The position numbers were made by a program, and so were the translations under genes. Shown here one piece after another: positions 1-16,808 of a stretch of DNA of 22,534 nucleotides. This DNA is from a virus: IMG/VR virus record IMGVR_UViG_3300035204_000803, positions 1-22,534 of that record; one strand, 5' to 3'. Position 1 is the first letter of the stretch; the number at the start of each line of letters is the position of its first letter. The notes below the pieces were generated by a model. The model worked only from the letters and a program-made list of their open reading frames with translations, searched no databases and was not told the DNA's origin.

Positions 1-438
1 TGATTGAATTGGATCTATGATTCTCTCTACGAAATTACAGGTTAGAATGAACCTACAATGTTTACTAAATGTTTCCATTAAATTTCTTAATGCAGCTTGG
101 GCATTTGGTGTAATATAATCACACTCGTCCAAGATAATCACTTTCATATCTTGAAATCCAAGTGTTGAGGCAAAGTTCTTAACTTTCTCTCTCACTACTT
201 CTACACTATTTTCATCTGATGCATTAATATATAGATAATCACAATCTATATTCTTAACTAATAATTTAGCGAGAGTGGTCTTACCTGTACCTGCCCTTCC
301 AAACAACAAAAGGTGTGGTAAGTCTCCACTCTCCAAATAGACCTCAACCTTACTTTTTAGATGTTCATTTCCAATGTAAGTGTCAAGGTTTGAAGGACGG
401 TACTTTTCTACCCATAAACTATTTTTAATTTCTTCCAT
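1..438 (-). CDS. 44: Sliding-clamp loader large subunit, AAA+ ATPase (gp44-like), 3' end missing
   Basis: ATP-driven loader that opens the sliding clamp and places it on primer-template DNA; it acts in the cytoplasm with a small subunit not seen here. Only the first 146 residues are in the window. The N-terminus reads WVEKYRP, typical of clamp-loader/RFC subunits. Walker A is GRAGTGKT at residues 47-54, and Walker B is ILDECD with D104/E105, so the DExD box is DECD. LTCNF near residue 130 fits the sensor-1 strand. The ATG overlaps the stop of the upstream methyltransferase-like gene by one base (TAATG), which supports both the start and translational coupling. The frame is open to the window edge. 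The family call is firm; the T4 symbol is by similarity of type and context. Confidence 0.93.
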   Translation of the reverse strand, partial: MEEIKNSLWVEKYRPSNLDTYIGNEHLKSKVEVYLESGDLPHLLLFGRAGTGKTTLAKLLVKNIDCDYLYINASDENSVEVVREKVKNFASTLGFQDMKVIILDECDYITPNAQAALRNLMETFSKHCRFILTCNFVERIIDPIQS

Positions 439-1685
439 TATAACTTTTTCCATATCCAAATTGGTTCACAAAATGTTTTTCCGTTTGTTTCTTGTGCTAA
501 TTGTAATGATTCTTCTGTAAACCTATTATCCGAAGCTGTTCCAGCTCCACCACTATTTGGTCTCTGTGCCATTTCCATTCCAATACAACCTTGATATTCT
601 GAATCGTGGAATGTAGATAAAAAATCATTCATAGGATTACAAATCTCTAACCACTTTTTTCCATGTGAATTTAATCTCTTTTGTTTTGCTCCACTACTAG
701 CATAAACATCAGATATATTCACTAATAAATATCCACCATTCTTAATAGAAACCCATAATTTTTTTAAAGTTTTCTGTAAAAACTTCTCGTTCCACTCATC
801 GATGGTTTTATATCTTACCCAACTTTGAGTATCATCATAACTATATCTCTCAACTCCAAAATATGGTGGTGATGTAAATACAGTATCAAACATATCTTCA
901 TATTCTTTATAATTAACATCTTCTGCTGGTGATTCAATAAATTCACAATCCTTATCTACTTCAAAAAACATATTTCTATGTATATTATAGAAATCTTTTT
1001 GTTCCTTGTATATCGGATGATTTTCTTTTCGTGGGTCTATTCCAAGATAATATTTACCTGTTTCACTACCATAGAATCCTGCCAATCTATCACCCCAACC
1101 TGCACTAAAATCTAATATATTCTCACTACCTAACTTATCATATAATACTTTTGCCACATTTGGTTTAAACTGAGAACAAATATACTTTCTCAATCCAATC
1201 ATTGTTCTCAACACACTACGGTTTATTTTAGGTAATTTTAAAGTATAGGCTGCTCCCATCAAACTCGTCATAAACTTTTCAGTTTTCCAAGTTCTTTCTG
1301 GACCTGGAGCAATAGTTCCATCTACACTCCACCTATTCTTTTGTTGAAAATAATTACTTGAACTATTTCCTGTATTGATTCGTCTGAAGTATTGTTGTTT
1401 ACCTTGAAAAGATAAATCATATTTATATTCTGAACCTTCTCGAGCAAACCAAGTTCCCTCAACTAAAATTTCATTATGTCTCATACCTTTTAACTTCATC
1501 AAGTCCTTGTAGGCATCATTCTCTGAAATTAGAGCGTACGGTATCTCATAAGTCATTGCAACTTTTGCAAGACTTTCCTTGACATCTTGTTTGTCAAATG
1601 TTTCTTTTATGTACTTCCATTCTCCTTCATCAATTGAAAGATATGGTTTCATATTTAAGAATTTGTCAAAATACTCTAAATACAC
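438..1685 (-). CDS. DNA methyltransferase-like protein (N4/N6 class, SPPY motif)
   Basis: Predicted SAM-dependent methyltransferase of 415 aa. Residues 191-198 (LDFSAGWG) fit the SAM-binding motif I, followed by LGIDPR. Residues 272-275 are SPPY, the catalytic motif IV of amino-methylating (N4-cytosine or N6-adenine) DNA methylases. GGYLLVNISD follows as a later core strand. The N-terminal 180 residues are not recognised and could bind the target. The protein resembles the gene at 11506-12603 along most of its length, so the two look like paralogues. The start is GTG at 1685, one base after the clamp stop; a later ATG (residue 12, position 1652) is possible, since neither has a strong ribosome site. 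It lies between clamp and clamp-loader genes. No restriction partner is visible, so modification of phage DNA or a non-DNA substrate are both open. Confidence 0.8.
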   Translation of the reverse strand: MYLEYFDKFLNMKPYLSIDEGEWKYIKETFDKQDVKESLAKVAMTYEIPYALISENDAYKDLMKLKGMRHNEILVEGTWFAREGSEYKYDLSFQGKQQYFRRINTGNSSSNYFQQKNRWSVDGTIAPGPERTWKTEKFMTSLMGAAYTLKLPKINRSVLRTMIGLRKYICSQFKPNVAKVLYDKLGSENILDFSAGWGDRLAGFYGSETGKYYLGIDPRKENHPIYKEQKDFYNIHRNMFFEVDKDCEFIESPAEDVNYKEYEDMFDTVFTSPPYFGVERYSYDDTQSWVRYKTIDEWNEKFLQKTLKKLWVSIKNGGYLLVNISDVYASSGAKQKRLNSHGKKWLEICNPMNDFLSTFHDSEYQGCIGMEMAQRPNSGGAGTASDNRFTEESLQLAQETNGKTFCEPIWIWKKL

Positions 1686-1686
1686 C

Positions 1687-2418
1687 TTAACTTACTTGTT
1701 GTGTTGCCACTAAGTAATATTCTGATTTGTATTCATCCACATTGAAGTTTATTTTACTCAAACCTGATTTACTGATTTTCAATGAAGCATTTGTACACTC
1801 TTTATTTGCACTTAATATATTTGCAAACATTGTAGCGTTAAATGAGATTGGTTCAAGTTCAACATATTTTTCAACTTCAACTGGAATTGTAATACGATTA
1901 CTTGCAACATTACTATAACCTATAACAACACTAACCTTTCCATCTTTAGTTATTATTGTAAATGACTCACTATCCGTAAGAGCACCCTTACCCATAATGA
2001 ATGTGTTTATAAAGTAAGAATTTACTTTAATATCTAAATCAAATTCACTTGGTAAGTTTTTCAATGCTGGTGGTGTTGGTATAACACTTAAATCACTCAA
2101 CATATACTTTGATTTAGTATTGTATTTAGTATCTGTCATATCAATACTAATAAACTTATCACCTGAAGATGTTAATTTAAATTCAACATCATCACTTAAA
2201 ACTGATAATAGTGCTACAAGTTGTGGTGTATTATAGACACCTAATTCTGATGGATCAACTCCTGAGAATTTATCTACTAATACACTACCAACAACTGATT
2301 TATCACCTGAGATAAACCTTGTTGACAACTTTGTACCATCACTAACCCACTTAACAGATTTTATTTCTCCACCAAGTGCGTATTTATTAATATATCTAAT
2401 TAGTTGTGTTTTATTCAT
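1687..2418 (-). CDS. 45: DNA polymerase sliding clamp (gp45-like)
   Basis: Processivity factor expected to form a trimeric ring around DNA and tether the polymerase. It is 243 aa, close to T4 gp45 (228 aa). Clues are the position between the polymerase and clamp-loader genes, the N-terminal helix followed by alternating beta strands, and the segment YNTPQLVALLSVL, which fits the hydrophobic helix of gp45-type clamps. There are no cofactor motifs, as expected. The start is ATG with AAAGG two bases upstream and AAGGAA nine bases upstream. A TTGAAC/TATATA promoter-like pair lies in the 59-nt gap before it. The polymerase encoded next door ends in a PIP-box-like tail that would dock on this ring. 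The identification rests on sequence feel plus gene order; no single residue is diagnostic. Confidence 0.87.
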   Translation of the reverse strand: MNKTQLIRYINKYALGGEIKSVKWVSDGTKLSTRFISGDKSVVGSVLVDKFSGVDPSELGVYNTPQLVALLSVLSDDVEFKLTSSGDKFISIDMTDTKYNTKSKYMLSDLSVIPTPPALKNLPSEFDLDIKVNSYFINTFIMGKGALTDSESFTIITKDGKVSVVIGYSNVASNRITIPVEVEKYVELEPISFNATMFANILSANKECTNASLKISKSGLSKINFNVDEYKSEYYLVATQQVS

Positions 2419-2446
2419 AACCTTTTGTTCCTTATATTATTGTTCC

Positions 2447-2475
2447 TATATATACATATATATAAAAATGTTCAA
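2447..2475 (-). promoter_or_regulatory. Sigma70-like promoter for the clamp gene
   Basis: On the minus strand TTGAAC (2470-2475) is followed by a 17-nt spacer and TATATA (2447-2452), in the polymerase-clamp gap. The area is very AT-rich, so chance matches are likely. Confidence 0.4.
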
Positions 2476-2477
2476 AA

Positions 2478-4976
2478 TCAAAAAAATCTTTCAATAGATT
2501 GTTGTTGGTCAACTACTGCTTCCCAACCCATACTTTCATAGAACATTCCTATTTTTTTCTTTAAAGCCTGTTCGAACATTCTATTACTATCTATCTTATT
2601 TTTGATTAAATCTAAAATTTCTCTTGGGTCTTCATAACCCTTGTATGCTATGGTATCAAATCCAAACTCATTATCTTTTAAATAAACCCATTTTATTTTA
2701 CTACCATTAGTAATCTTTTCATATTTTCTACCCTCATACCAATAATCTAATAATGAATTATAATTTATAGCCGCCTTAACATGAACTGGTGCACCTTTCT
2801 TATATTTAGCAAATGAACTCTCTTCATCTCTTTCAATATACTTTCCAATACCTTTTACACCGATTGGATTTGCCATAACATCAAAATGTAAATTATTCAT
2901 ATTTCTTTTAAAAATACTAATTCTCTCATCAATCTTTTCTTTTGGTACTTTTGCCAATATATCTTGTAAAACTTGTCCTAATAACTCTTTCATAGCAATA
3001 GCAAAATTACTACGAACTGTATCCAATCCTTTTACTTGTAACTTATTCACTTTTCTACCAGCATCATTAATAATATTTAATCCATATCTTTTCTTAACAA
3101 TAAACAAACCTGTCTTGGCAATAACTTCTTGTTTAATATCAAATACATGGTCATCTATATTCAAAAACTTTTTAGCAAAATAATCATAACTTTGATTTAA
3201 ATAATCTTGTACTTCACCACACACTTCCATAATCCTTTGTGTCATCATTGTTTCTGATAACTTTTCATTTGGATATCTATTCTCAATCAATGGAACTGCG
3301 GATGCGAAAATACTATCAGTATCAATATAAATAACATAATCCTTTTCATCACCCAATTCTTTATTATAAAAATGATTTGTAATCTTCTTACTAAATTTAA
3401 TTAATGATTGACCTGTAAGTGTAGTTGCCTCAGCATTATCAATATCATAAAATCTAAATACTGGTAATCCCAATACACCATATAATGAATTTAACAAAAT
3501 CTTCTGTAAGTATTGTCGTCTATCAAAATATTCTTCTTTCTTTTTATCACCTTGATTGTGAAACTTTTTAACAAGTTTTCTCATCTCAACTCTTTCATTA
3601 AACCACTTTGATAAAAGTGCTGGAATCAATCCTTGTTTATCCGTTCTATACATTATACCATTACTTGATATACTTACTTTTTGATTTTCTAAATAGTCTT
3701 TTAATTCTATTTCAGATAACTTACCTACTTTTTTTCCCTTTCCATTTCTAATTTGATATGTTTGTTGATGATTTGTTTTTATAAAATCTTCTGCTTTCCA
3801 TTCATCAACCTTACCAATCTTTGTTTCTGGTGAAATATTTAAAGAACGAATAACACTTGGATACATTGATGTAATATCTAAATCAAATACCCACTCGTGT
3901 CTTCCTCTTTGTGGGTCTTGTACATAAGCTCCTGCAAATTTATCTTCCAACTTCTTAGGTCTTGGTGGTTTATTAGGTGCCACAACTCCAAGTTTTTTCA
4001 AATAAACCAATATAGCACCCTCTAAATATCTTGAACTCATAAACACATCTTCATATGGTACATGACCAATATGAGCTATACCACGAGCAATATCAATAAA
4101 GTCTAACTTATCATCTAATTCAGCAAGTATTTCAACATCTCGTATATTATATTTAACAAATTCTTTTAAATCTTTTTCATATAAATCATTAAGTGTTCCT
4201 TCATAATCTATCTTTTTCAACCCAACTTCAACTTCACCAATGTAATCTAATCTATAACTTGATTGTTGTATTGGTGAAAACTTTCTATATAAATGTAAAT
4301 AATCCATCTGATTAACACCAGCAATAGTATACTTTTTCTTGTATTCACTATAATAAATTTGTCCAATTGGTGATAACATAGTTGCTACATCTTTACCCAA
4401 TACTCTTACTGCTCTATTATATAGATAAGGAACATCAAAACTATCACTATTCCATCCACTTAATATTGTTGGTTGTATTTCTGAATACTTTCTAAAAAAT
4501 GAAGTTAATAATTCATATTCTGTAGTAAAGAACTCAACTATCTTATCATCTTTTGTATAATTCTGAAGTTGTTTTTTCTCATCCAATACATACGCAAAAT
4601 ATGTTTTAGTTACCTCATCATATAATGCAATTGAAGTTATCTTGTTTGGAGCTTTCATTGGATCAGGAAATCCATCGGTAACTTCAACCTCAATATCAAA
4701 AAATACTTTTCTATGTCCTACTGATACTTCATCTGAATCTGTATATTGGTCAACTAAAAATCTTGTAGGAATGGGAACATCACTTTCGTGTAATCCAGGA
4801 GTTTTATCTTCCCATTTAAAAATCTTTTTAACTTTATCACCATCAAGTGTAAAGTGTTGTCCTGTTGAATTTTTTATATAAGCGTACTTTTTATATGGGA
4901 TTATAAGATAACCCCTTTTATCATCCCAAAGATGAATTTTTTGTCTTTTAACTTCGAAATAAATCGATTGATACAA
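2478..4976 (-). CDS. 43: Replicative DNA polymerase, family B (gp43-like)
   Basis: Replicates the phage genome and proofreads with a 3'-5' exonuclease; 832 aa against 898 in T4. Exonuclease motifs are in order: FFDIE (D94/E96), SGWNSDSFD (N176, D181) and YNIRD (Y276, D280). Polymerase motif A is DITSMYPS (D367), motif B is KILLNSLYG, and motif C is YIDTDS. All catalytic residues are present, so it should be active. The last eight residues, QQSIERFF, match a PIP box (Q-x-x-I-x-x-F-F) that would bind the sliding clamp. The frame starts at TTG (4976) with GGAG ten bases upstream; no in-frame ATG occurs nearby, and the promoter at 5006-5035 places the transcript start just ahead. Clamp and clamp-loader genes follow on the same strand. 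Confidence 0.97.
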   Translation of the reverse strand: MYQSIYFEVKRQKIHLWDDKRGYLIIPYKKYAYIKNSTGQHFTLDGDKVKKIFKWEDKTPGLHESDVPIPTRFLVDQYTDSDEVSVGHRKVFFDIEVEVTDGFPDPMKAPNKITSIALYDEVTKTYFAYVLDEKKQLQNYTKDDKIVEFFTTEYELLTSFFRKYSEIQPTILSGWNSDSFDVPYLYNRAVRVLGKDVATMLSPIGQIYYSEYKKKYTIAGVNQMDYLHLYRKFSPIQQSSYRLDYIGEVEVGLKKIDYEGTLNDLYEKDLKEFVKYNIRDVEILAELDDKLDFIDIARGIAHIGHVPYEDVFMSSRYLEGAILVYLKKLGVVAPNKPPRPKKLEDKFAGAYVQDPQRGRHEWVFDLDITSMYPSVIRSLNISPETKIGKVDEWKAEDFIKTNHQQTYQIRNGKGKKVGKLSEIELKDYLENQKVSISSNGIMYRTDKQGLIPALLSKWFNERVEMRKLVKKFHNQGDKKKEEYFDRRQYLQKILLNSLYGVLGLPVFRFYDIDNAEATTLTGQSLIKFSKKITNHFYNKELGDEKDYVIYIDTDSIFASAVPLIENRYPNEKLSETMMTQRIMEVCGEVQDYLNQSYDYFAKKFLNIDDHVFDIKQEVIAKTGLFIVKKRYGLNIINDAGRKVNKLQVKGLDTVRSNFAIAMKELLGQVLQDILAKVPKEKIDERISIFKRNMNNLHFDVMANPIGVKGIGKYIERDEESSFAKYKKGAPVHVKAAINYNSLLDYWYEGRKYEKITNGSKIKWVYLKDNEFGFDTIAYKGYEDPREILDLIKNKIDSNRMFEQALKKKIGMFYESMGWEAVVDQQQSIERFF

Positions 4977-5005: not shown

Positions 5006-5035
5006 AATATAACAACAAAACTCTATACGAGTCAA
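5006..5035 (-). promoter_or_regulatory. Promoter for the family B polymerase gene
   Basis: The minus strand carries TTGACT (5030-5035), an 18-nt spacer and TATATT (5006-5011), about 30 nt before the TTG start of the polymerase. It is preceded by GC to give GCTTGACT, an extended -35 word also found at the promoters at 16761-16790 and 17063-17091. This fits recognition by the host housekeeping sigma factor. Confidence 0.7.
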
Positions 5036-5052
5036 GCCTTTTTTTAAGTAGA

Positions 5053-5079
5053 AGGGGGATAATATTGCACTATCCCCCT
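5053..5079 (-). terminator. Terminator-like hairpin after the TonB-dependent receptor gene
   Basis: A perfect 9-bp stem (AGGGGGATA / TATCCCCCT, loop 5062-5070) begins 11 nt past the receptor stop codon. It is very GC-rich for this genome. The following minus-strand bases are pyrimidine-rich (TTCTACTT) rather than a true U tract, so it may terminate weakly, or protect the 3' end of the mRNA. Confidence 0.6.
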
Positions 5080-5089
5080 AAATACTATT

Positions 5090-7897
5090 TTAGAAATTAA
5101 CACTTAACCCTAAGTTAAAGTATCTTGGTGTACCAAGAAATACTTCAGCGTTATGTGCTGCGTGTACTTTATCTCCGTAACTGTTGTATTGACTATGATC
5201 AACAGCGTCTTGTACATATACTTCATCCAATGCGTTAAACACATGAGCGAATAAAGATATATCATATCCACTAATTGGTAGTTGATATGAAGCATGTAAA
5301 TCCACCTTAGAATATCCAGGTGCCATCCATACTTGTTCTCTGTCTGCATCTTCATCTGAACCATCATACTCACGAGCATCTGGACTCCAATCACTATAGT
5401 TCTTTTCATAAGAATTCCATAGTGCTTGAATTGCTAATCCCTTTACAGGTGTAATGGTAGCACCAAGTGCATATGATGTTTGTGGCATATCACCAACATA
5501 CAATCCGTTAAGAGCATATTGATAATCTGTAGCGGTTAAACCTGTTACATTACCGTTTTCATCATATTCATTTGATTGATACTTTCCATTAGCATCACCA
5601 TCAAACTTCCAAGTACCAAGACTTATTGCCGCATCTAAACGAACCATCTTGTGTAATTGTGTAGAAGCTTCTACTTCTAAACCTTGATGTTTTTGGTTAA
5701 TACCTGTTAAGAAAATAACATCAGTATCTCCTGAATCACCTTGTCCTGTAGTTACTGCTTTAGTAAGGTTTCTGTCTTTCCAATCTGTATTGTATATATT
5801 TGCTTTAACAGCAAATTTATCAGAACTGAAATTAACACCCGCTTCTGTACTAATGTATTTCTCATTATTTGGATCAGAAGCAACCGTACCATCATAGTAA
5901 ATTACATTGTCCATGATTGGTGGTTTCTCAACATATCCAATATTACCAAAAAGACTAACATTGTCATCTATGTCGTACATTGCTCCACCTTTAAATTGCA
6001 TCGTATAGATAGCATCAGCTTCTATAACTTCATTTGCAACTGTAAAGTGATCTTGGTAAGAATACTTAATACTCGATAATCCACCCATACCATATAGATT
6101 TAAATTATCTTTTGTATAATTACCTTGAACAAATGTACCTAACCAATCAACTGTTGTTGAGTTATGATAAGCGATTATATCACCTAAACCAACTCTTTTA
6201 CCATCAGGTGAGTTGTCATCAGCGTAATCCATATAGTAATCACCACCCATCAAATCACGAACTTCACGAGCGTGTTCGATTCCAGCAGTTCTCCAATCAA
6301 TACCTACTTGTAATTTTAACGCATCACTAATATCGTAATTAAGTTTAGAAATTACACCATAAGTATTTTGACGATTGATACTATTTCTTAGAATACCAAC
6401 TGATTGATTATTACCTTCACCATGTGTTCTTGGAAGTGCTCTTTTATCAACATATACTGTATCAGAATCACCTGAATTATATGCGATAAGAGTATTCCAA
6501 TCACGAGTCCAGGGAGAGCGACCATAATAGAATTTATAATCTTCTCCACCAAGAACACCATCGGCATCCATAGTAGGAATCCTACCATAAGTACCTGTTC
6601 CACCACCAGAACCACCACTCCAATAAAAGACAGAACTTAAGCTTGTCTTATCATCGATAGTCCAAAAATGGTTTAAGTTAACCAATGGTTTATGAAAGTA
6701 ATTTTCTCTTTCATTTAAGAAGTTGGGATCATGTCTGTCTTGGTTTCCACCACCAAATAGTCCACCAACACCATACATATACCAGTATTGTTTACCTGTA
6801 TATGAAGCATCTACTGGAGACCAGTTTTGGTTAAAGAATCTTCCAACATCTTTGAACTTACCATCTTCACCAAGTGCGGTTTCATCGTATCCATCTATAC
6901 TTGCAGCAAAATCAGCATCATATGCACCAATATTCTGTTTGTATAAATTTTGTCCATGTCTCTGTGGAGCACCAATTGCGTATAATTCCAATCGATGATC
7001 AGAGTTTACTTGATAACTTGAACCTAAATAATAAGCCCAAGCATCTGTCCATGCTTTATCGATGTGTCCATCACCTGTTTTACGAACTACAGTTCCACTT
7101 ATAGCGAATTTATCACCAATAAGTCCTGAATTGTAATTCAATGTGGATTTCAACAATCCACCTGCACCACTTTCCTGTTTAAACTTCCCACCTTTTTCAT
7201 AGGAAGCAGGGTCTGTGATTATGTTTATAGTTCCACCAATGGAAGGGGCAGCTAAATTAACGGCACTTAATCCACGCTGCATCTGGATAGATTGTGCAGC
7301 ATCTGCTACACCATCCCAGTTAGACCAATAGACCCAACCGTTTTCCATATCATTTTGTGGTACTCCGTTTATCATTACTGCTACATTCCTCTGGTTAAAC
7401 CCACGAACATTAATACGGGCATCACCCGCACCACCACCTTGTTGCGTAGCATATACACTCGGTGTAGTATTTAAAGACATTGGTAAGTCTTGTGAACCAA
7501 GACGAAATTCAATTTCTTCTTTACTAACCGTAGTATAAGCAACAGGTGTCTTTTCATCTGCCCTTGAAGCCAAAACCTCAAGTGCGGACATCTCTAAAGC
7601 AGATACTAAAAGTGAGAAGTCTACGGTGCTAGCCGTTCCCTCTACTACTTCAACTTCTACTGTTTGAGATGCATATCCAATTGAAGAAGCTGTAAGTGTA
7701 TAAGTTCCTGCCCCTAAATCAATAGAGTAAGCTCCATCTGCATCCGCAGCTGAACCTAAATCAGTTCCTTCTACAACAACATTAGCTCCTGCCAATGGGT
7801 TCGACTCTGTATCTGTAACAGTTCCGACTACCTGACCATATAGGAACATTGGCATCATCATTGTTAAAAATACAGATATTAGATTATTTTTTTTCAT
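5090..7897 (-). CDS. TonB-dependent outer-membrane receptor
   Basis: Gated beta-barrel that imports a substrate across the host outer membrane using TonB energy; 935 aa. Residues 1-22 form a signal peptide ending LYGQ. Residues 23-97 are a carboxypeptidase-regulatory-like beta-sandwich (GTVTD, SSIGY). The plug spans about 115-230 with RINVRGF, MINGVPQND and GGTINIIT. The rest is an aromatic-rich barrel ending in Phe (LSVNF), the usual sorting signal for barrel assembly. The frame is intact. Start ATG has AGGAG seven bases upstream. It follows the B12-dependent reductase gene by 78 nt, possibly on one transcript, and a hairpin ends the unit. The layout is typical of FCB-group receptors (Bacteroidota, Marinimicrobia). 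The substrate cannot be read; cobalamin, siderophore or glycan uptake, or blocking of rival phages, are all possible. Confidence 0.95.
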   Translation of the reverse strand: MKKNNLISVFLTMMMPMFLYGQVVGTVTDTESNPLAGANVVVEGTDLGSAADADGAYSIDLGAGTYTLTASSIGYASQTVEVEVVEGTASTVDFSLLVSALEMSALEVLASRADEKTPVAYTTVSKEEIEFRLGSQDLPMSLNTTPSVYATQQGGGAGDARINVRGFNQRNVAVMINGVPQNDMENGWVYWSNWDGVADAAQSIQMQRGLSAVNLAAPSIGGTINIITDPASYEKGGKFKQESGAGGLLKSTLNYNSGLIGDKFAISGTVVRKTGDGHIDKAWTDAWAYYLGSSYQVNSDHRLELYAIGAPQRHGQNLYKQNIGAYDADFAASIDGYDETALGEDGKFKDVGRFFNQNWSPVDASYTGKQYWYMYGVGGLFGGGNQDRHDPNFLNERENYFHKPLVNLNHFWTIDDKTSLSSVFYWSGGSGGGTGTYGRIPTMDADGVLGGEDYKFYYGRSPWTRDWNTLIAYNSGDSDTVYVDKRALPRTHGEGNNQSVGILRNSINRQNTYGVISKLNYDISDALKLQVGIDWRTAGIEHAREVRDLMGGDYYMDYADDNSPDGKRVGLGDIIAYHNSTTVDWLGTFVQGNYTKDNLNLYGMGGLSSIKYSYQDHFTVANEVIEADAIYTMQFKGGAMYDIDDNVSLFGNIGYVEKPPIMDNVIYYDGTVASDPNNEKYISTEAGVNFSSDKFAVKANIYNTDWKDRNLTKAVTTGQGDSGDTDVIFLTGINQKHQGLEVEASTQLHKMVRLDAAISLGTWKFDGDANGKYQSNEYDENGNVTGLTATDYQYALNGLYVGDMPQTSYALGATITPVKGLAIQALWNSYEKNYSDWSPDAREYDGSDEDADREQVWMAPGYSKVDLHASYQLPISGYDISLFAHVFNALDEVYVQDAVDHSQYNSYGDKVHAAHNAEVFLGTPRYFNLGLSVNF

Positions 7898-7975: not shown

Positions 7976-9985
7976 TTAATTTGCATATTCTTGATCATCG
8001 TTATCTCCACTTAATGGTTGAATCTCACATGAATCATTATTGCAAAATTTATCTATTTCGGCTTCTTCGTTTTTAATTACTCCAAACGAAAGTGTTTTTA
8101 ATTTTTTTAATTTCTTGTTATATAACTTTTCATCTATTGCTTCATATGGCATTTGTTTGTAAGCTCCATAATCGTGTCTTGGTAATAATGAAATTCCTTT
8201 TAATCGGTATTGAAAATAATTCAACACATATGGTAATTCTTCAGCTTCTGTTTCGGGATTGAATGTTGCTGTACAACTTACTTGGTTATCTGCCCAATGT
8301 CGTTGTAAGAATGCGGCTAAACTGAATTGTTCCCAAATCGAAAGTTCAGCCGCAGTTCTTATACCCTCTCCTACATCTACTGGCACTTCTACAACTAATG
8401 TTGTTTTCTCTGAACCAAATGCTGGTTCTAATGTATAACCTGCCTTTTTCAATGGCTGTATCAGGTCAGAGTTAACTGATAACCTAATTCTTCTAATATA
8501 AAATCTACTCTCTGGATAATGTAATCCTGGTGTTGCTCCTGCTAATAATGAAACCGTTCCACTTGGTTTTACACTTGTAGTCTTAATAGACTTAGGTACT
8601 GCAAACCAATCACTATAAACTTTATCCCACTCTTGTATAACATCATATCCATCTTCTAACCAATTTCGTAATGTATCTAATCCATTATTAGTAATGAATT
8701 GTGCTACTCCACTAACACTACATCCAATTCTTCTATTTCTCAACATAACTCTGTTTGTATCACTCCAATGTGTTCTACCAAGTGTTACGGTTTTGGCGTA
8801 TAAATAAGCATATTTTAATGTACGAGAATAATCCTCATATGAATCATGATTATTTGGAAATGTTTCTACTAAACAACATAATTCATAACTTTCTAATGAT
8901 TGTTCTAAACAAGGATTTCCCCCTGCAACTCTATGGTCTACATCATCTCCCCCATTTTTCATACGAGAAAAGTGTCTCATATTTTGTAACCATGCTAATC
9001 CAGGTTCACCATTATCTACAATTCTTTTACAAATGTCTGAATAATCCATTCCTAATTCAGCAAAAACTGAATTGTTTGATGTCCATCCATATTGCTCTCT
9101 ATGTTTATTTACCTTATAATTCTTTAAATCTAAATATTCTTCATCATGTGGATCACCGAACACAATCTCTGCTGTTCGTCTTACATTACCTGCTACGACA
9201 CATTTACCAATTAGGTTCATTATATCAACAATTGTAGTAGTTGTAATTGGTTCTCCACTATTCTTTTCTAATACTTTTCTAATATCTTCATGTACTTCTT
9301 CTAATGGTTCATGTCCACTTGATACTCCACCAAAACCTTTAATTGGTTCACCTTCTGGTCTAATCAAATTATAATCAAATTCTACTGGTTGTGAACCATG
9401 AAAATAACTCTCTAATAATAACCTTAATGAATCCACCCAACCTTCTCTTGTATCTGGAATCTGAAAAGTTGTTGGGTCTCTATCTTTATCAATACCTTTA
9501 ACAATTATTTCCCCAGCACCTTTTACATCAAAACCTACACCAACACCTAACATAGAAGCATCCATTAGAAAACAAAATGGTTTTGAATAATCTTCTTTTA
9601 ATGTTTTAGTAGATACGAAAGCACAATTGTTTAGTGCTGCATATAACTTCTTTTCTTCAGTAATTGCAGTTCCCATTGCCCATAAACCACGACCAGGCGG
9701 TAAGAACTTCATAGTGAACATTCTCTCATACATATCTTGTGCGGATTTTTGGGCTTGCCAAGGATTCCAACCTAACTGATGTGAACTAATCCAATTCATT
9801 TGCATAGAATAAGTTCCCTCTACAACTCGTTGAACGGTTTCCCACCATCTTTCGTTTTTACCATTTTTTTTTATTCGAGAATAGGTTCTCATATAAACTA
9901 ATTCACCTAAACCATTGAAGCCAAAAGGTGGTTTTTTTCTTTTGTACTTGTCTATAAAATTTCCTGATAACTTAAATTTCTCCAT
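7976..9985 (-). CDS. nrdJ: Adenosylcobalamin-dependent ribonucleotide reductase, monomeric class II
   Basis: Reduces ribonucleotides to deoxyribonucleotides for phage DNA synthesis, using coenzyme B12 to make the active-site thiyl radical. The 669-aa protein lines up with the monomeric Lactobacillus leichmannii triphosphate reductase (739 aa, known residues C119, N406, C408, E410, C419, C731, C736). Matching residues are C121 (NNC), N357-P-C359-L-E361, C370 eleven residues after C359, and a C-terminal pair C648/C653 with the same five-residue spacing. FLPPGRGLW (94-102) and the PSGT segment also fit. No separate small subunit is needed or seen. Start ATG; GGAAGA lies close upstream and AGGAG twelve bases upstream. 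A -10-like TATAAT lies at 10038-10043. The receptor gene follows 78 nt downstream. Confidence 0.94.
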   Translation of the reverse strand: MEKFKLSGNFIDKYKRKKPPFGFNGLGELVYMRTYSRIKKNGKNERWWETVQRVVEGTYSMQMNWISSHQLGWNPWQAQKSAQDMYERMFTMKFLPPGRGLWAMGTAITEEKKLYAALNNCAFVSTKTLKEDYSKPFCFLMDASMLGVGVGFDVKGAGEIIVKGIDKDRDPTTFQIPDTREGWVDSLRLLLESYFHGSQPVEFDYNLIRPEGEPIKGFGGVSSGHEPLEEVHEDIRKVLEKNSGEPITTTTIVDIMNLIGKCVVAGNVRRTAEIVFGDPHDEEYLDLKNYKVNKHREQYGWTSNNSVFAELGMDYSDICKRIVDNGEPGLAWLQNMRHFSRMKNGGDDVDHRVAGGNPCLEQSLESYELCCLVETFPNNHDSYEDYSRTLKYAYLYAKTVTLGRTHWSDTNRVMLRNRRIGCSVSGVAQFITNNGLDTLRNWLEDGYDVIQEWDKVYSDWFAVPKSIKTTSVKPSGTVSLLAGATPGLHYPESRFYIRRIRLSVNSDLIQPLKKAGYTLEPAFGSEKTTLVVEVPVDVGEGIRTAAELSIWEQFSLAAFLQRHWADNQVSCTATFNPETEAEELPYVLNYFQYRLKGISLLPRHDYGAYKQMPYEAIDEKLYNKKLKKLKTLSFGVIKNEEAEIDKFCNNDSCEIQPLSGDNDDQEYAN

Positions 9986-10147: not shown

Positions 10148-11509
10148 TTATTCGAATCCTTCTCCGTCAAAATCTTTCTTCTTTTGTGCTAATGTTTTTC
10201 TAATATATTCATCTGCATTATTCATCTTTCCTTGTACTTCTTTCCCACCTTGTGTGTTAGTTTCATAGATTTGTATGTAACCTGTATTAGTATTAATGGT
10301 TGCTGGAAATGTAATTCCATCTGGACCAAAACGATTTTTAATCACATGAAATCGACCTGTATTTGCGATTTTATCTTCTACTTTTCTACTCATACTCATA
10401 ACAAAATCTGCTGTCATAACTTTTGAATAATCTTCTGAAACCTTATCTGCTCCAATAACATCTTCTTCTAATGATGAACGATTTGCTTGTGATGCTGTCC
10501 ATATTGGTACATCAAATTCCCCCGCCATACCACGAAGTTCTTCATAAACATGACCTATCTGATGTCTCTTTTCTGTAAAATGTTGAGTTGATTTCATAAT
10601 ATCAGCATAATCAACTATAACCAAATCTGGTTTTATTCCTTGTAGTTCACATTGTTGTAAATGAGCAGTTACAGTATTTACACTAGCAGTTCTTGTAGGA
10701 TAATACTTGATAATAAGATTTCCTTTTAACTTATCAATTGCTTTCTGTACATCTTCCTTGTAGTACTGAAGATTTCCTGTAGGTTGTCCACTAATAATAC
10801 AATCATATCTCAATCCAACATAAGCTGCATTTAACTCCAATGTATAATGAATTACCGTTAATCCCCTTTTTACAGCATGTGTTCCAAGTGCTTGTAGTGT
10901 CCATGACTTACCAATCCCTGCTGGAGCAACTATAACACCGAGTTCTCCACCAGCAAGTCCACCATCCATTAAATCATTAACACTATCCCAACCCGTAGGT
11001 TGAGTATCCCTTGCTTGTTTTGTCATTCTTTCTTCAAAACCAGTAATATATTCGTGTCCTATATCTCTTTCCATCCCAGCAGTCATTGCTTTATCAATAA
11101 TTCCCTTTATATCATCATATTGTTGAGTTTCCAATAATTCAACTGATTCCATAATTGCATTTTTAACAATTTGATTCTTACAAAATTCTAATGTTTTCTC
11201 TTTAACAAATTCTAAATCTGGGTCTTCTCTGTGTTGCCAAGCACCTCTTAATGAATCTACAATTGCTACCTTTAATACATCATTCTCTACCTCATCAACC
11301 ATAACTTTAATACTTTCCATAGTTGGTTGTGATTTATATTTAACAAAATAATCTTTAATAGATTTAACTAAAAACTTATTTGAATCCGTATCAAAATAAC
11401 TTACTTCAAGAATATCAATGATTTGTTTTGTAAATTTTACATCAGTTAATAAACTTGAAATAATTTTACTCTGAAATGAAGTTCCATATTTTACTAATGA
11501 TTCACTCAT
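10148..11509 (-). CDS. 41: Replicative DNA helicase, DnaB/gp41-like
   Basis: Hexameric 5'-3' helicase that opens the fork and works with a primase (not in the window). It is 453 aa, near the T4 gp41 length (475). The N-terminal 150 residues are helical, as in the DnaB N-domain. The RecA-like motor begins at about 172 with GWDSVNDLMDGGL. Walker A is APAGIGKS (195-202), Walker B is LVIVDYAD (296-303), and TASQANR fits the H3/sensor motif of the DnaB family. Start ATG overlaps the stop of the upstream methyltransferase-like gene as ATGA, so the two are probably translationally coupled. It is the last gene of the overlapping operon that starts at the recombinase. Confidence 0.94.
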   Translation of the reverse strand: MSESLVKYGTSFQSKIISSLLTDVKFTKQIIDILEVSYFDTDSNKFLVKSIKDYFVKYKSQPTMESIKVMVDEVENDVLKVAIVDSLRGAWQHREDPDLEFVKEKTLEFCKNQIVKNAIMESVELLETQQYDDIKGIIDKAMTAGMERDIGHEYITGFEERMTKQARDTQPTGWDSVNDLMDGGLAGGELGVIVAPAGIGKSWTLQALGTHAVKRGLTVIHYTLELNAAYVGLRYDCIISGQPTGNLQYYKEDVQKAIDKLKGNLIIKYYPTRTASVNTVTAHLQQCELQGIKPDLVIVDYADIMKSTQHFTEKRHQIGHVYEELRGMAGEFDVPIWTASQANRSSLEEDVIGADKVSEDYSKVMTADFVMSMSRKVEDKIANTGRFHVIKNRFGPDGITFPATINTNTGYIQIYETNTQGGKEVQGKMNNADEYIRKTLAQKKKDFDGEGFE

Positions 11510-12603
11510 TCGAACTCCTTTTTAAATACAAAGATAGGTTCATATTTTGAACCTGAACCTTCACCATCTCTGGCCATTGTTGATAAATTTAATCTTAAAG
11601 TTTTGATATGATTATAACCTAATTGTTTTGTTATTTCCAATGTTGCATTTTCTATATTTTTCCCACTCGAAGTGTTCGCTATATTCATTAATAAATATCC
11701 ACCAACTTTCGTAGAATCAAAAGTATTTTTCAAAGTTTGACCCAAAAACCCATAAATCCATTCTTGTTCTGTTGGAAATTTAATATAACTTTGAGTTGAT
11801 TCATCTGCATATTTTTCCGTATCAAAATATGGTGGTGAAGTAAAACATAAATCTACTTTTTCTCTTAAACCCATAATCGATGGATTAAAAACTTCACTAC
11901 CAAGACGATATAACTCTACTTCTTTTCCAATATAACTAAAATCATCTTTAATCTTATTCAATCCCTCAAATGTTTTTGTTGATGGTTCTGTACCAATATA
12001 CTTCTTAATTCTTTTAGATGAAAGTGCACCTAACAATCTTCCACCCCAACCACAACTCATATCCCAAGTTACACCATCACCACCATAAGTTTCATAAATG
12101 TATTTTGCAGCCGTAGGACGAAAATTAGATACGGTTTGTGTTCCACCATACAATTTTAAATTCTGTCTAAACCTATTCTCTGTCCAATGTGGTTTATCAC
12201 TATGATTAAAGTGCCATTTAATTGTCTTTCTGATTACTTCCTTTAACTTATCATCATCATGAAAATTTTCCCAAGGCGTTGTTTTAGCATTACCACAAGG
12301 TACTTTCCAAAATTGTGGAAAGTAACTCCAAGCCAATCTCAATCCATTCATAGTCTGAGTTATCTCATCACCATCAAGTATTTGTTCATGTTTGAAATTC
12401 TGTAACTTTCTCATCTGTTCGTGTTTTTCTTCTTCACGAATTGTATAGTGTGGGAATCCATTATTTCTATAATATTTAAAAATAATATCAAGAGCTTCAT
12501 CGTCATCAATTCTCTCTAAACTATTACAAACTTTATGATAATCTAATGATAACTTATCTTCATCAAGAAATTTACTCAATACATCATAATCTACAGAACT
12601 CAT
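11506..12603 (-). CDS. Second DNA methyltransferase-like protein (SPPY motif)
   Basis: Predicted SAM-dependent amino-methyltransferase of 365 aa, related to the product of 438-1685. Motif I is DMSCGWGGR (181-189), the next strand is IGTEPS, catalytic motif IV is SPPY (256-259), and GGYLLMNIAN is the later core strand. Shared patterns with the paralogue include SPPYF followed by E-x-Y-x-x-(D/E)-x-TQS, and an N-terminal stretch around residues 50-75 (FPHYTIR... compared with IPYALIS...). Both ends overlap neighbours by ATGA: the small basic gene upstream and the helicase downstream. It therefore sits inside the core replication operon, which suggests action on phage DNA during replication. The target base and site are unknown. 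It could instead methylate a non-DNA substrate. Confidence 0.8.
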   Translation of the reverse strand: MSSVDYDVLSKFLDEDKLSLDYHKVCNSLERIDDDEALDIIFKYYRNNGFPHYTIREEEKHEQMRKLQNFKHEQILDGDEITQTMNGLRLAWSYFPQFWKVPCGNAKTTPWENFHDDDKLKEVIRKTIKWHFNHSDKPHWTENRFRQNLKLYGGTQTVSNFRPTAAKYIYETYGGDGVTWDMSCGWGGRLLGALSSKRIKKYIGTEPSTKTFEGLNKIKDDFSYIGKEVELYRLGSEVFNPSIMGLREKVDLCFTSPPYFDTEKYADESTQSYIKFPTEQEWIYGFLGQTLKNTFDSTKVGGYLLMNIANTSSGKNIENATLEITKQLGYNHIKTLRLNLSTMARDGEGSGSKYEPIFVFKKEFE

Positions 12604-12785
12604 CCCAAATTCTCATACATATCTTGTACTTTCTTATCATAAAATTCTTTTCTTTTCTTTTCACGATATCTTTCACGAGCCTTTGCCTTTATCTTATCTG
12701 CATTTCTTTTATAATGTTCCATTTGCCATCTTCTTTGAGCTTCTTGTTTTTGTTTTTTTGTTTTATATTTAACTTTTCTACCCAT
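12600..12785 (-). CDS. Small basic protein of unknown function
   Basis: I do not recognise this 61-aa protein. It is extremely basic and hydrophilic, almost all predicted helix (KYKTKKQKQEAQRRW, then RERYREKKRKEFYDKK), with no Cys, so not a zinc finger. Such a helix could bind nucleic acid or a partner by charge. It is a real gene by context: the ATG overlaps the nuclease stop by 8 nt, has GGAG seven bases upstream, and its own stop overlaps the next ATG as ATGA. The tight coupling inside the replication operon suggests a role in replication or recombination, but that is inference. Confidence 0.75.
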   Translation of the reverse strand: MGRKVKYKTKKQKQEAQRRWQMEHYKRNADKIKAKARERYREKKRKEFYDKKVQDMYENLG

Positions 12786-13866
12786 GAGTTTTCTCCGCCA
12801 TGTGATTCAATCTATTAAATGTTGTTGCTAACCAACTATTTAAATTAGGTAGTGCTGTATATAACTTATCTTCCAAAAACATTTTTTGAAATTTGTGTTT
12901 AATAATTCTTTGTATTGGTTGTTCTAATTGATTCTTAACTTTTAACTTTGAACTCCCTGACATAATACTATCTGTTAAATCCATAAGTTTTTTATTTAAA
13001 TGTAATTGTTCTTCTGATTTACTAATCACCTCACACACTTTATATTTGTCTTTGTTTACCAAAGAACTTTTTAATAAATCATCTATTGTAATTTCATGTG
13101 GTGATTCTAAAAATGGAAACACTTTCAATAATGTTTTTAATCCAGCACCTTTAATTCCTGGTATTCCATCTGATTTATCTCCATCCAATATTCTATACAA
13201 TAAAAAGTTTTTTGAATTAATTCCATATTCATCTAAAATTCTATCTTCATCATACATTAATTTTTTTGTAGGTGAATATACTTTTATATTCTCATCAACT
13301 AATTGTAGAAAGTCTTTATCGGTTGACATTATAGTAGTTTTTGAATCTTTGAACAAATGTTTAGCACAATATCCAATCACATCATCTGCTTCTATATTTT
13401 CTATATTGGTAATGGTTAAAGGTAAACATTCAAGATACTCAATCACTCTATTTAATTGAGCAATCATCATCTTGTGTTCATCTTCACGAGTAAGTGAAAC
13501 ACCAGTAGTTCTATTTAAACGAACTGACATTTTCCTACCCATCTTATACTCTGGAAATATTTTTCTACGGCGGTTAGACCCACCTTTACCATCAAATATT
13601 ATGATGGTTCGTGTGGGTCTTACCATATTAATAGTATAACCAATTGACCTTAAAAAACCAACTATTCCACCAATGTGGATCCCGTCCTCATTAGTAGTTG
13701 GTATTGCGGAAAATACTCTAATAAAAGTATTTAATCCATCTATAAGTAAAACCGAGTCATTTGGTTTACCACTATCAACCTTTCCGCCAGATTTCTTAAT
13801 CTCCTCAAGTATAGATAAATGTTTCGGATTAATCACCGATAACCTCATCTGTGAATTCGACATCAT
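12778..13866 (-). CDS. rnh: 5'-3' exonuclease / flap endonuclease (FEN family; T4 RNase H-like)
   Basis: Removes RNA primers and 5' flaps from lagging-strand fragments. With 362 aa (T4 RNase H is 305), it has the FEN acidic residues in order: LIDG (D43), FDG (D92), EADD (E159, D161, D162), STDKDF (D183, D185) and DGDKSDG (D228, D230, D233). GIPGIKGAG follows as the helix-hairpin-helix. Basic residues near 100-115 fit the arch. The start is uncertain. The frame opens at TTG 13875, ATGs lie at 13866, 13863 and 13848, and a GTG at 13836 has GAGG six bases upstream and would overlap the recombinase stop by only 8 nt, like other junctions here. I give the first ATG. It lies between the recombinase and the small basic gene. 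Confidence 0.9.
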   Translation of the reverse strand: MMSNSQMRLSVINPKHLSILEEIKKSGGKVDSGKPNDSVLLIDGLNTFIRVFSAIPTTNEDGIHIGGIVGFLRSIGYTINMVRPTRTIIIFDGKGGSNRRRKIFPEYKMGRKMSVRLNRTTGVSLTREDEHKMMIAQLNRVIEYLECLPLTITNIENIEADDVIGYCAKHLFKDSKTTIMSTDKDFLQLVDENIKVYSPTKKLMYDEDRILDEYGINSKNFLLYRILDGDKSDGIPGIKGAGLKTLLKVFPFLESPHEITIDDLLKSSLVNKDKYKVCEVISKSEEQLHLNKKLMDLTDSIMSGSSKLKVKNQLEQPIQRIIKHKFQKMFLEDKLYTALPNLNSWLATTFNRLNHMAEKTHG

Positions 13867-14929
13867 CAATACCAAGTTTTTCTTGATACTTTAATATAAC
13901 CTTATCACAAATGATTTGATACACATATTCTCGTAATTCATCATTTTCAGTAATTAAATCTTCCCAATCTTTTGATTGAAACTTATGTTCTTTACCCTTT
14001 TCATCTGTAAGAGTGTACCATGCACCACCTGATTTAACTAACTTGTGTTCTTTAAGTACAGTTAACCACGCACCATAATTATCTATTCCTCTATCGAAAT
14101 ACATATCATAATCTGCGTGTCGTAATGGTGGGCCTAATCTATTCTTGACAATCTGTGCTCTACACTTCATTCCCAATACATTTTTACCTGTATCTTTGAT
14201 TTGCCCCATATTCTTTAAACGAATACGAGTTGAAGCGTGGAATGGTAATGCTTTTCCACCACTTGTAGTCCAAGGGTCTCCAAACATTACACCAAGTTTT
14301 TGTCTTAATTGGTTGGTAAATATTAAAGCAATTTTCTCTCTTCCAATCATTTGAGTAATCTTTCTCATAGCCTTTGAGATAATAATTGCTTTAGCTGTTG
14401 CCCAACCATCTTTATTAAAGTCCGCTTCTAACTCTACTTTTGTAGTAGCACCAGCAAGTGAATCAACCAAGATAGTTACTAACCTATCTTTATCACTTTC
14501 ACGAACTTTAGTTACGATTTCTTCAATCGCTTCAAAGATATCTTCTACAGTTTCTAAATGTAGATATAACATCTTACTCATATCAATCCCAATCACATCC
14601 ATAAACTCTTGTGAAACTGAAGTTTCAGTATCAATATATACTGCCACTCCACCTTTCTTTTGAGTTTCTGCTAATATGTGAGCACCAAGTAGAGATTTTC
14701 CACTTGATTCTAATCCGTTGATTTCAGTAATTCTACCTACTGCAACTCCACCATTTGGCTTATTTGATATTGCCAAATCTAACATGGAACTACCAGTAGA
14801 AATAAAATCCTTAATATCGGTAGGTGTTGTATCCGTACCATCAAGAAAGTATGCTACTTTAGTATCTTTGAATTTTTTATTTAGTGATTTAGCTAATGTA
14901 CTAGCTAAAACATCATTAACTGATGACAT
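13829..14929 (-). CDS. uvsX: RecA/UvsX-family recombinase
   Basis: ATP-dependent strand-exchange protein that coats ssDNA and drives recombination-dependent replication and repair. It is 366 aa (T4 UvsX 391, E. coli RecA 352). Walker A is GLESSGKS (72-79), IDTET matches the RecA strand with the catalytic Glu, and LVDSLAG fits Walker B. The stretch TNQLRQKLGVMFGDPWTTSGG is close to the RecA L2 region, so the protein looks more RecA-like than T4 UvsX. Start ATG has AGGAG six bases upstream. It follows the ssDNA-binding protein gene across a terminator-like hairpin, and heads the overlapping nuclease-methylase-helicase operon. UvsX normally works with gp32, encoded next door. Confidence 0.93.
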   Translation of the reverse strand: MSSVNDVLASTLAKSLNKKFKDTKVAYFLDGTDTTPTDIKDFISTGSSMLDLAISNKPNGGVAVGRITEINGLESSGKSLLGAHILAETQKKGGVAVYIDTETSVSQEFMDVIGIDMSKMLYLHLETVEDIFEAIEEIVTKVRESDKDRLVTILVDSLAGATTKVELEADFNKDGWATAKAIIISKAMRKITQMIGREKIALIFTNQLRQKLGVMFGDPWTTSGGKALPFHASTRIRLKNMGQIKDTGKNVLGMKCRAQIVKNRLGPPLRHADYDMYFDRGIDNYGAWLTVLKEHKLVKSGGAWYTLTDEKGKEHKFQSKDWEDLITENDELREYVYQIICDKVILKYQEKLGIDDVEFTDEVIGD

Positions 14930-14950
14930 TCATTTCTCCTATCAATAATA

Positions 14951-14973
14951 TTGGGGCAGATAAACTGCCCCAA
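14951..14973 (-). terminator. Hairpin after the ssDNA-binding protein gene
   Basis: Perfect 9-bp stem TTGGGGCAG / CTGCCCCAA with a 5-nt loop, 13 nt past the stop codon. The bases after it (TATTATTG) are T-rich without a clean U tract. It would allow partial termination, making more ssDNA-binding protein than recombinase, or stabilise the upstream mRNA. Confidence 0.65.
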
Positions 14974-14985
14974 AGTTGTTATAAT

Positions 14986-15744
14986 TTATGAATTAAATAG
15001 GTCGTCAAAAGCATCTGATGTATTTGATACTTTAGACTTTTCCAATTCAGATGTAGAAACGGTATCTGTTTTAGATTCCTCTTCTTTTGTATCATCTTCA
15101 CTTGGATTCAACCATTCATTCAAAATTTCCGTCATATCATCATATGATAATTCTTGATAGATTTCTGTAATGTCCTGTTGTTTCTTTACGACCTCTAAGA
15201 CTTCTGGATCATCAGAAATTGGTGTTTGATTAGGTTTTACCCTAATGTTAGTTTTAGGAAAACTAGCACCTGTTTCTTCGGCTGAAATAAATTCAACAAC
15301 AACATCACGACCATTTACTGGGTCTGTGATATCACCATAGTCTGGGTCAGCAATAATGGAAAGCAGTTCTTGATAAACCGTTTTACCAAAACCCCAAAAC
15401 TTCACACCTTGTTTTTCCTCACCTCTAACTACTACTGGAGCAAAAGTTCTCATTTTTGCTTCGAGTTTTCTTGACAACTGATAGTCTTCTTTACTACCAC
15501 TTCCTCTTAGTTTTTGAGCAAACTCTTCAATAGGGTCTGGTCTACCAAAAGAAATTGGTGATAAATAAGAACGGTTGTTCAAATTGTAGTGAAAGAATAA
15601 CTCGATAAAAGGATTATCTTTATTAAAAGCGTAAGGTACGATTCTAATTTGTGTTTTTCCTGGTTGTGGTTTCCAAAGACTGGAAGTTCGAGTGTTTGTG
15701 GTTTGTAACTGATTTAAGCGTTTTTTAATTGCATTTAAGTCCAT
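14986..15744 (-). CDS. 32: Single-stranded DNA-binding protein (gp32-like)
   Basis: Coats ssDNA at forks and recruits recombination proteins. It is 252 aa against 301 in T4. The basic N-terminus (KKRLNQL) fits the cooperativity region. The core has QIRIVPYAFNKDNPFIELFFHYNL and WGFGKTVY with aromatic and basic residues typical of gp32 OB folds. The C-terminus is long, acidic and serine-rich, ending DAFDDLF, as expected for a partner-binding tail. T4 gp32 binds zinc through Cys/His, but this protein has no cysteine at all, so that zinc site is absent. Start ATG has AAGGAG eight bases upstream. The gene stands alone between the ncRNA terminator and its own hairpin, upstream of the recombinase. 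Confidence 0.88.
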   Translation of the reverse strand: MDLNAIKKRLNQLQTTNTRTSSLWKPQPGKTQIRIVPYAFNKDNPFIELFFHYNLNNRSYLSPISFGRPDPIEEFAQKLRGSGSKEDYQLSRKLEAKMRTFAPVVVRGEEKQGVKFWGFGKTVYQELLSIIADPDYGDITDPVNGRDVVVEFISAEETGASFPKTNIRVKPNQTPISDDPEVLEVVKKQQDITEIYQELSYDDMTEILNEWLNPSEDDTKEEESKTDTVSTSELEKSKVSNTSDAFDDLFNS

Positions 15745-15786
15745 TGTTTAACTCCTTATGTATTATTTTTCATTATCTATTTGTTA

Positions 15787-15807
15787 ATCAAGTATAACCT
15801 TGATACA
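15787..15807. repeat. Inverted repeat upstream of the ssDNA-binding protein gene
   Basis: ATCAAG (15787-15792), 6 nt, then CTTGATACA (15799-15807), about 45-65 nt before the start codon. The half-site TTGATACA also forms the perfect palindrome at 16365-16382, so both could bind one regulator. Confidence 0.4.
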
Positions 15808-15858
15808 ATAATAAGTATCATGTGGCTGCTTAAAAATGTGATCTTTTTTCATTAAAGC

Positions 15859-15929
15859 AAAAAAAAAGGTTCTATTGTTTTTAAGTCTGTATATAAGTGG
15901 AAACTAAAAATCGGTCGAACCTTTTTTTT
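15859..15929 (-). terminator. Intrinsic terminator of the second structured RNA
   Basis: On the minus strand AAAAAAAAGGTTC (15929-15917) pairs with GAACCTTTTTTTT (15872 downwards) and ends in a run of nine U. The 44-nt interior can extend the stem through TTTTTAG/CTTAAAAA. The A and T runs are symmetrical, so it might also stop plus-strand transcription. Confidence 0.7.
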
Positions 15930-16345
15930 AAATATTTGGAAATTTTAGGGAATGTAGGACTAGCGAATACCTACAACTCTCTGCTCAGATTTTATTGCCC
16001 TTGTACCTAACACCCACCAGTCATGGTGATTCTTCTCAAGATGGTTAATCTCATTGAAGTGAGTACAACCTCTGTGCCATTGCCTTATCTCTCTGAGTTT
16101 AGATTAATTCGGCCACAAGATGGGATTTCAGTTTTACCCTTACCCACAACAAGGTCTAAAGAATCGCTTCTTTATGTGTTCAGAAAGTACATTAGACAAC
16201 CGATGTCTCGGTGTAGAAGTAGAATTTCACCACCCCTAAACTCACCACAAGTTTGCCTTGGATTACCTTATGGGCTTCTAAAGGATACCCATTGTTCGGT
16301 CAATTCCATACGAAGTTAATTACTCCTCGTACTTTTCCAAAACTC
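15859..16345 (-). ncRNA. Large structured non-coding RNA, unknown family (RNA 2)
   Basis: This stretch has no convincing gene, raised GC (28 of 60 bases in 16201-16260) and many hairpins. Stems are 16309-16315/16325-16331; 16270-16274/16288-16292; 16238-16242/16250-16254; 16200-16203/16208-16211; 16157-16163/16168-16174, a perfect 7-bp stem; 16015-16019/16024-16028; and 15953-15958/15970-15975. The minus strand is favoured. The 7-bp stem closes a GCGA (GNRA) loop only on that strand, the first stem contains a pair that is G-U on minus but A-C on plus, and a U-run terminator closes the unit. The 5' end is approximate. I cannot match it to tmRNA, RNase P or a group I intron. Its size and phage setting recall ornate phage RNAs such as GOLLD or ROOL, without recognised sequence identity. 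Confidence 0.7.
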
Positions 16346-16364
16346 CAAAATTGTCAAAAAACTT

Positions 16365-16382
16365 TGTATCAAACTTGATACA
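16365..16382. promoter_or_regulatory. Operator-like palindrome between the two structured RNAs
   Basis: Perfect palindrome TGTATCAA-AC-TTGATACA, 8-bp arms with a 2-nt centre, the size of a dimeric repressor site. It lies just upstream of RNA 2, close to a TTGACA on the minus strand (16350-16355 area). A related half-site lies upstream of the ssDNA-binding protein gene. Confidence 0.45.
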
Positions 16383-16434
16383 TTAATATATATGTATATA
16401 AAATCCCAAAATACATTTTTTTTTCATTTTTTTT

Positions 16435-16494
16435 AAAAAAAATTGTGGTTTAGAAAGTTGCGTCTGATTGGATTTCGGCTGTTATCCAAACCAC
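16435..16494 (-). terminator. Intrinsic terminator of the first structured RNA
   Basis: GTGGTTT (minus strand, 16494-16488) pairs with AAACCAC (16451-16445). An inner GGAT/ATCC stem sits between them, and AAUUUUUUUU follows with eight U at 16442-16435. The compound stem is also the 3' end of RNA 1. Confidence 0.65.
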
Positions 16495-16754: not shown

Positions 16755-16760
16755 TACCTA

Positions 16761-16790
16761 AATATACGACATAAATACTATATAAGTCAA
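16761..16790 (-). promoter_or_regulatory. Promoter for RNA 1
   Basis: GCTTGACT (TTGACT 16785-16790), an 18-nt spacer and CG-TATATT-TAGG (TATATT 16761-16766) on the minus strand. It is nearly the same design as the promoter at 17063-17091 and shares its -35 word with the polymerase promoter. Confidence 0.7.
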
Positions 16791-16808
16791 GCACTTTTTT
16801 CACTTTTT

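Follow-up and report, generated by a model that had tools for sequence, protein, structure and literature searches.

A TonB-dependent receptor gene as a common module in the replication region of ocean T4-like phages

T4-like phages of the ocean carry among their replication genes a gene for a TonB-dependent receptor (TBDR), which is an optional yet very common module of these phages. The gene was recognized at positions 5090-7897 (minus strand) of the IMG/VR record IMGVR_UViG_3300035204_000803; the complete record of 22,534 bp was analysed and is called the window in the following. Most likely, the phages took up once a TBDR that occurs as a single-copy gene throughout the Neomarinimicrobiota, and uncultured members of this lineage (SAR406) are probably the hosts of the TBDR-bearing phages. 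We consider it rather probable that the protein is a working TonB-dependent transporter that serves as an auxiliary metabolic gene in infection.

The open reading frame of 935 codons starts with ATG, contains no internal stop codons and is preceded at a distance of 7 nt by the ribosome-binding site AGGAG (7909-7905). Residues 1-22 (7832-7897), read from the sequence as a signal peptide region that ends at about LYGQ, form an N-terminal helix in the fold model, and the N termini of the other viral copies are likewise hydrophobic. There follow a CarboxypepD_reg-like domain (residues 22-96, 7610-7834; PF13715 and PF13620), a TonB-box-like segment placed between two domains and conserved in phages and hosts (residues 100-114, 7556-7600, ALEMSALEVLASRAD), and the plug (residues 115-223, 7229-7555; PF07715, 55 bits). 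The Pfam matches (CarbopepD_reg_2, 2e-18; CarboxypepD_reg, 3e-17; Plug, 1e-14) all exceed the curated cut-offs. The segment SALEVLASRA lies where a TonB box is expected and is predicted to act as such. The motifs RINVRGF and GGTINIIT are both found. The beta-barrel extends from about residue 238 to the final Phe at residue 935 (5093-7186). It is seen as a many-stranded barrel in an AlphaFold2 model of moderate confidence (mean pLDDT 67.9), in which the plug is modelled poorly. Foldseek searches with the model yielded only TBDRs as top matches, the best in the PDB being Fiu, PqqU/YncD, FhuA and FecA at 10-13% identity and the best viral fold (BFVD) a SusC-like protein of an uncultured marine phage at 11% identity. 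A plug followed by a barrel and an aromatic C terminus place the protein among the TonB-dependent receptors, the barrel being deduced solely from the fold model and Foldseek. The original prediction of an intact receptor of this length, with signal peptide, regulatory-like domain, plug, barrel, terminal Phe and AGGAG site, is thus confirmed by the reading frame, Pfam and the fold model; of the domain searches it had proposed, those for the plug and the CarboxypepD_reg domain succeeded, but none of the Pfam barrel models matched the window TBDR. Assignment to the SusC/RagA family was rejected (60 bits with TIGR04056, the cut-off of which is 368), and a SusD-like neighbour was seen neither in the window nor among the host neighbours scanned. 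Defence-system models did not match the TBDR.

The window is transcribed from right to left, so that a class II (adenosylcobalamin-dependent) ribonucleotide reductase (RNR; 7976-9985, minus strand; TIGR02505, 349.7 bits at a cut-off of 340.05) lies upstream of the TBDR and a family B DNA polymerase (PolB; 2478-4976, minus strand; PF00136, PHROG 262) downstream. Both neighbours are conserved by synteny, and the predicted location between them on the same strand proved correct. Further upstream, a T4-like module (10148-15744, minus strand) encodes a DnaB-type helicase, a methyltransferase, a small ORF, a 5'-3' exonuclease, UvsX and a gp32-like SSB; further downstream (1-2418, minus strand) are an RFC-like clamp loader, a methyltransferase and, in the position of the sliding clamp, a gene that matches no family. 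UvsX, the gp32-like SSB, PolB and the RFC-like loader are replication genes of the T4 type. The window itself lacks a capsid gene, but three TBDR-bearing contigs (131.8, 130.4 and 80.0 kb) contain the T4-type capsid gene gp23, which identifies the carriers as T4-like myoviruses. The gap between TBDR and PolB (5006-5079, minus strand) contains a perfect 9-bp inverted repeat (5053-5061/5071-5079) and a promoter-like match (5035-5006), both of putative role; a scan for promoter-like sequences gave no excess over shuffled sequences. The methyltransferase-like genes at 438-1685 and 11506-12603 (minus strand) have C-terminal halves that are alike.

When IMG/VR was scanned with the TBDR protein, 309 stretches matched, the best 80 of them with 66-90% identity and almost all over the full length. 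Among 115 distinct full-length copies, which include one from a metagenome-assembled genome (MAG) counted with the viral rows (L103, see below), 100 directly follow RNR. Absence of the gene from all related phage contigs, which the original prediction had named as an outcome that would speak against it, is therefore not observed. Nine copies occupy a second site, after a membrane-protein gene, beside Hsp20 and without RNR; four long contigs have this site without a TBDR, and in one of them it holds PhoH. The TBDR is present at 62 PolB loci and missing from none with sufficient upstream sequence, 17 being too short to judge; the corresponding numbers for RNR loci are 59 present, 11 absent and 8 too short. 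The interval between RNR and PolB is empty in at least eight cases, with lengths of 57-129 bp, a count that leaves out three contigs fetched as TBDR carriers (L376, L401 and L405). In 19 of 20 long records there is exactly one copy. Glutamine synthetase accompanies the TBDR in 11 RNR-PolB intervals (L010 12883-13875, L222 5947-6939, L354 3858-4862 and eight more loci), peroxiredoxin in one and thymidylate synthase in another. In four second-site phages (L013, L017, L044 and L059), translations read by eye revealed putative queuosine/preQ0 synthesis, peptide deformylase and Hsp20 genes near the TBDR.

The origin of the gene was traced in cellular genomes. When 84,980 species genomes were scanned, 60 loci were obtained, the names of which are nearly all Neomarinimicrobiota, Marinimicrobia or FCB group. 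One match, with 43% identity, belongs to Opitutales, and the matches in Flavobacteriales and Euryarchaeota are phage contigs as judged by their neighbours; in two of these (L095 and L133), phage contigs were likely misbinned into the respective genomes. Each of 11 Neomarinimicrobiota genomes searched completely contains exactly one close orthologue with 62-72% identity, and in addition 7-20 weaker matches, mostly to the N-terminal part. In the phylogeny that the original prediction had called for (154 rows), the viral copies are set apart by a branch with support 100, and their relatives are the close orthologues of the Neomarinimicrobiota genomes. Scans from two distant host copies reached at most 69% identity to any viral copy; hence, repeated capture from those host lineages is not indicated. 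A possible complication is the copy L103, which was counted among the viral rows of the tree and nests inside the viral clade. The contig, 4.3 kb long, belongs to a Neomarinimicrobiota MAG; on it the copy occupies 986-3736 and has neighbours that look chromosomal, namely an aminotransferase gene and another TBDR arranged in tandem. Placement of this copy outside the viral clade was weakly rejected (AU p 0.03). It may represent a transfer from phage to host or indicate a second donor. The G+C content of the TBDR and that of its third codon positions are displaced from the host values toward the phage values. A phage glutamine synthetase (L010) shares 54-57% identity with the enzyme encoded by 10 of the 11 Neomarinimicrobiota genomes, which adds weakly to the host assignment. 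An origin of the phage RNR from the host was not supported, as RNR yielded no match in the 11 host genomes, in a search that was run without a positive control.

The TBDR is under purifying selection. Values of dN/dS range from 0.08 to 0.28 across viral pairs and amount to 0.17-0.18 for the window copy, as compared with 0.06-0.10 for RNR and 0.09-0.14 for PolB. The gene is host-derived, has a fixed place in phage genomes and is preserved by selection, as is typical of a phage auxiliary metabolic gene. Its divergence is nearly uncoupled from that of the replication genes: across 40 loci the Spearman correlation was 0.24 with PolB, 0.23 with DnaB and 0.45 with RNR, whereas PolB and DnaB correlated with 0.84. 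Some TBDR copies are 91-94% identical although the adjoining polymerases are only 58-62% identical, the two genomic sites interleave on the TBDR tree with at least seven changes, and one copy has an N-terminal stretch almost identical to that of the window copy but a different remainder. From these observations it was concluded that the phages swap TBDR alleles. Per-site conservation in phages and hosts correlates with 0.80, there are no fixed differences between host and viral copies, and a search for host-only insertions revealed none of note. The predicted extracellular loops vary less in phages than in hosts (0.76 versus 1.11 bits), as placed on the model of moderate confidence and with a viral set that is slightly less divergent (72 versus 67% mean identity). 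No such reduction is seen in the N-terminal domain, which evolves fast (phage 1.42, host 1.20).

These findings suggest that an infected cell is forced to continue the uptake of some substance required by the phage. The TBDR would be made together with the replication proteins, exported through the Sec and BAM machineries of the host and energised by the host TonB-ExbBD, and it would keep up or raise substrate import during host shutdown. The likeliest pay-off would be a supply for nucleotide and nitrogen metabolism, since RNR and the recurrent glutamine synthetase adjoin the TBDR. An auxiliary transporter fits best because all parts of gated transport are retained next to genes of nucleotide supply, joined in some phages by glutamine synthetase, peroxiredoxin or thymidylate synthase. 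In its favour are the intact domains, the host-like predicted TonB box, plug and per-site constraint, the purifying selection, the fixed place in the replication module and the single close orthologue in every host genome searched. Arguing against it are the loops, which are more conserved than those of the hosts and need not be so for transport alone, and the related phages that do without a TBDR. Moreover, a single phage-made outer-membrane protein pays only while TonB, BAM and uptake through the inner membrane function late enough. As clues to the substrate, the siderophore, PQQ and copper receptors among the Foldseek matches were discarded as uninformative at 10-13% identity, and the host gene neighbourhoods offered only housekeeping genes or genes without a family match.

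An alternative, to which we give a distinctly smaller chance, is that the single-copy TBDR of the host is a phage receptor, which the phage-made copy replaces, dilutes or sequesters, so that rival phages fail to adsorb or progeny phages are not wasted by binding to cell debris. TBDRs such as FhuA and FepA commonly serve as phage receptors. The far more variable loops of the host copies would be expected if only these had to evade phages, and the swapping of alleles among phages is also in line with replacement. A pure decoy, however, would need neither the predicted TonB box nor the plug, both of which are retained, the phage copy has neither diversified nor deleted loops, and the reading presupposes that these phages or their rivals use the TBDR as a receptor. 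Masking of the host receptor was among the functions considered originally; masking by a broken decoy does not fit, as plug, predicted TonB box and per-site constraint all match those of the host. What stands of the original reading is a complete receptor in a phage replication module, akin to the chromosomal receptors of a Gram-negative lineage. Among the three functions proposed at that time, feeding of the infected cell fits best. It is a more speculative thought, somewhat less probable than replacement itself, that phages routinely rebuild the outer surface of the host with their own TBDR, which would keep up uptake and at the same time determine which others can attach; the loops of the phage copy would then stay constant and those of the host would vary because phages adsorb there.

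It is improbable that the TBDR is a cobalamin receptor supplying the B12-dependent RNR next to it. This RNR belongs to the adenosylcobalamin-dependent class, is the immediate neighbour of the great majority of copies, and of all pairs with the TBDR shows the best-correlated divergence. Yet 14 of 17 host genomes contain one cobalamin riboswitch, which in the four loci read fully precedes a different receptor-like protein of 666-688 residues without significant similarity to the TBDR (E 0.2 or worse), RNR of the same type also occurs without an adjacent TBDR, and nine copies reside at the site that lacks RNR. Lacking significant similarity to the host receptor linked to the riboswitch, the TBDR was not assigned to BtuB, the B12 receptor, and a search for a riboswitch in the window was negative. 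Similarly improbable is a passive passenger or mobile cassette that phage recombination has spread and that plays no part of its own in infection. The two sites, the site changes on the tree, the swapped alleles and the empty sites would suit such a cassette, but purifying selection acts across a deep clade, the copies keep their full length together with the signal peptide, the plug and the C-terminal Phe, and long records nearly always hold a single copy. Finally, an assembly chimera or host contamination, which the higher G+C of the TBDR (0.37 versus 0.29-0.34 in its neighbours) might suggest and which chimeric junctions would have revealed, is practically out of the question, since dozens of independent contigs show the same junctions, the viral copies form a separate clade and the base composition is shifted from host toward phage values.

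Comparable phage genes are known from other systems. Lytic T4-like cyanophages retain a copy of the host uptake protein PstS; it is periplasmic, in contrast to the TonB-gated barrel of the outer membrane proposed here, and to our knowledge the phage nutrient genes described so far function in the cell interior or the periplasm. At the outer-membrane receptors act Lc of phage PA-2, a porin of a temperate phage, and Llp of T5 and Cor of phi80, small blockers of the TBDR FhuA; unlike the window gene, none of them is a TBDR. The structure of Llp with FhuA was among the Foldseek matches to the TBDR model. The host orthologues (for example L090 and L098) are 62-72% identical to the phage copies over the full length and share their domains and constraint, but are chromosomal, lie in housekeeping neighbourhoods and have more variable surface loops. 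TBDR genes have also been found in other marine phages. The megaphage Mar_Mega_1 and LR745206 encode a putative TBDR (SusC), proposed as an auxiliary metabolic gene for uptake (PMC9723777); these are single phages with large genomes for which no fixed place beside RNR or PolB was reported. LR745206 matches the window TBDR with 28% identity in the plug region only, which, together with the 11% identity to the marine-phage SusC model, indicates a separate acquisition. In the pelagiphage Polarivirus skadi an annotated TBDR was read by the authors as a hint to the receptor (PMC10504331); by its description the genome is T7-like, with the TBDR among structural genes. A TBDR was also noted in hot-spring phage contigs (PMC6302217). 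Among annotated phage records, 18 match the TBDR, none closely, and two align with about 30% identity over most of its length. No description of a conserved phage TBDR family was found in searches of an open-access collection of papers, preprints excluded. Isolated phage TBDRs have thus been reported before; the widespread conserved family is the new part.

If the transporter reading is true, infection alters what the cells of a major ocean lineage can import, and viruses are directly linked to the uptake of dissolved matter. The TBDR offers a marker for phages of uncultured Neomarinimicrobiota, and the comparison of phage and host copies is a natural experiment on the variation of the surface loops of host receptors. 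Two further features of the window lie apart from the TBDR. A manA RNA motif (RF01745) at 15949-16133 (minus strand) reaches 55.7 bits, the gathering score being 55.2, and falls within about 1 kb (15745-16808) without a clear gene on the coding strand. At 17901-18524 (minus strand) there is a lipoprotein-like, Ser/Thr-rich ORF with the lipobox SLSGC, to which a stretch at 5472-6056 of L021, a phage with the TBDR at the second site, is 80% identical.
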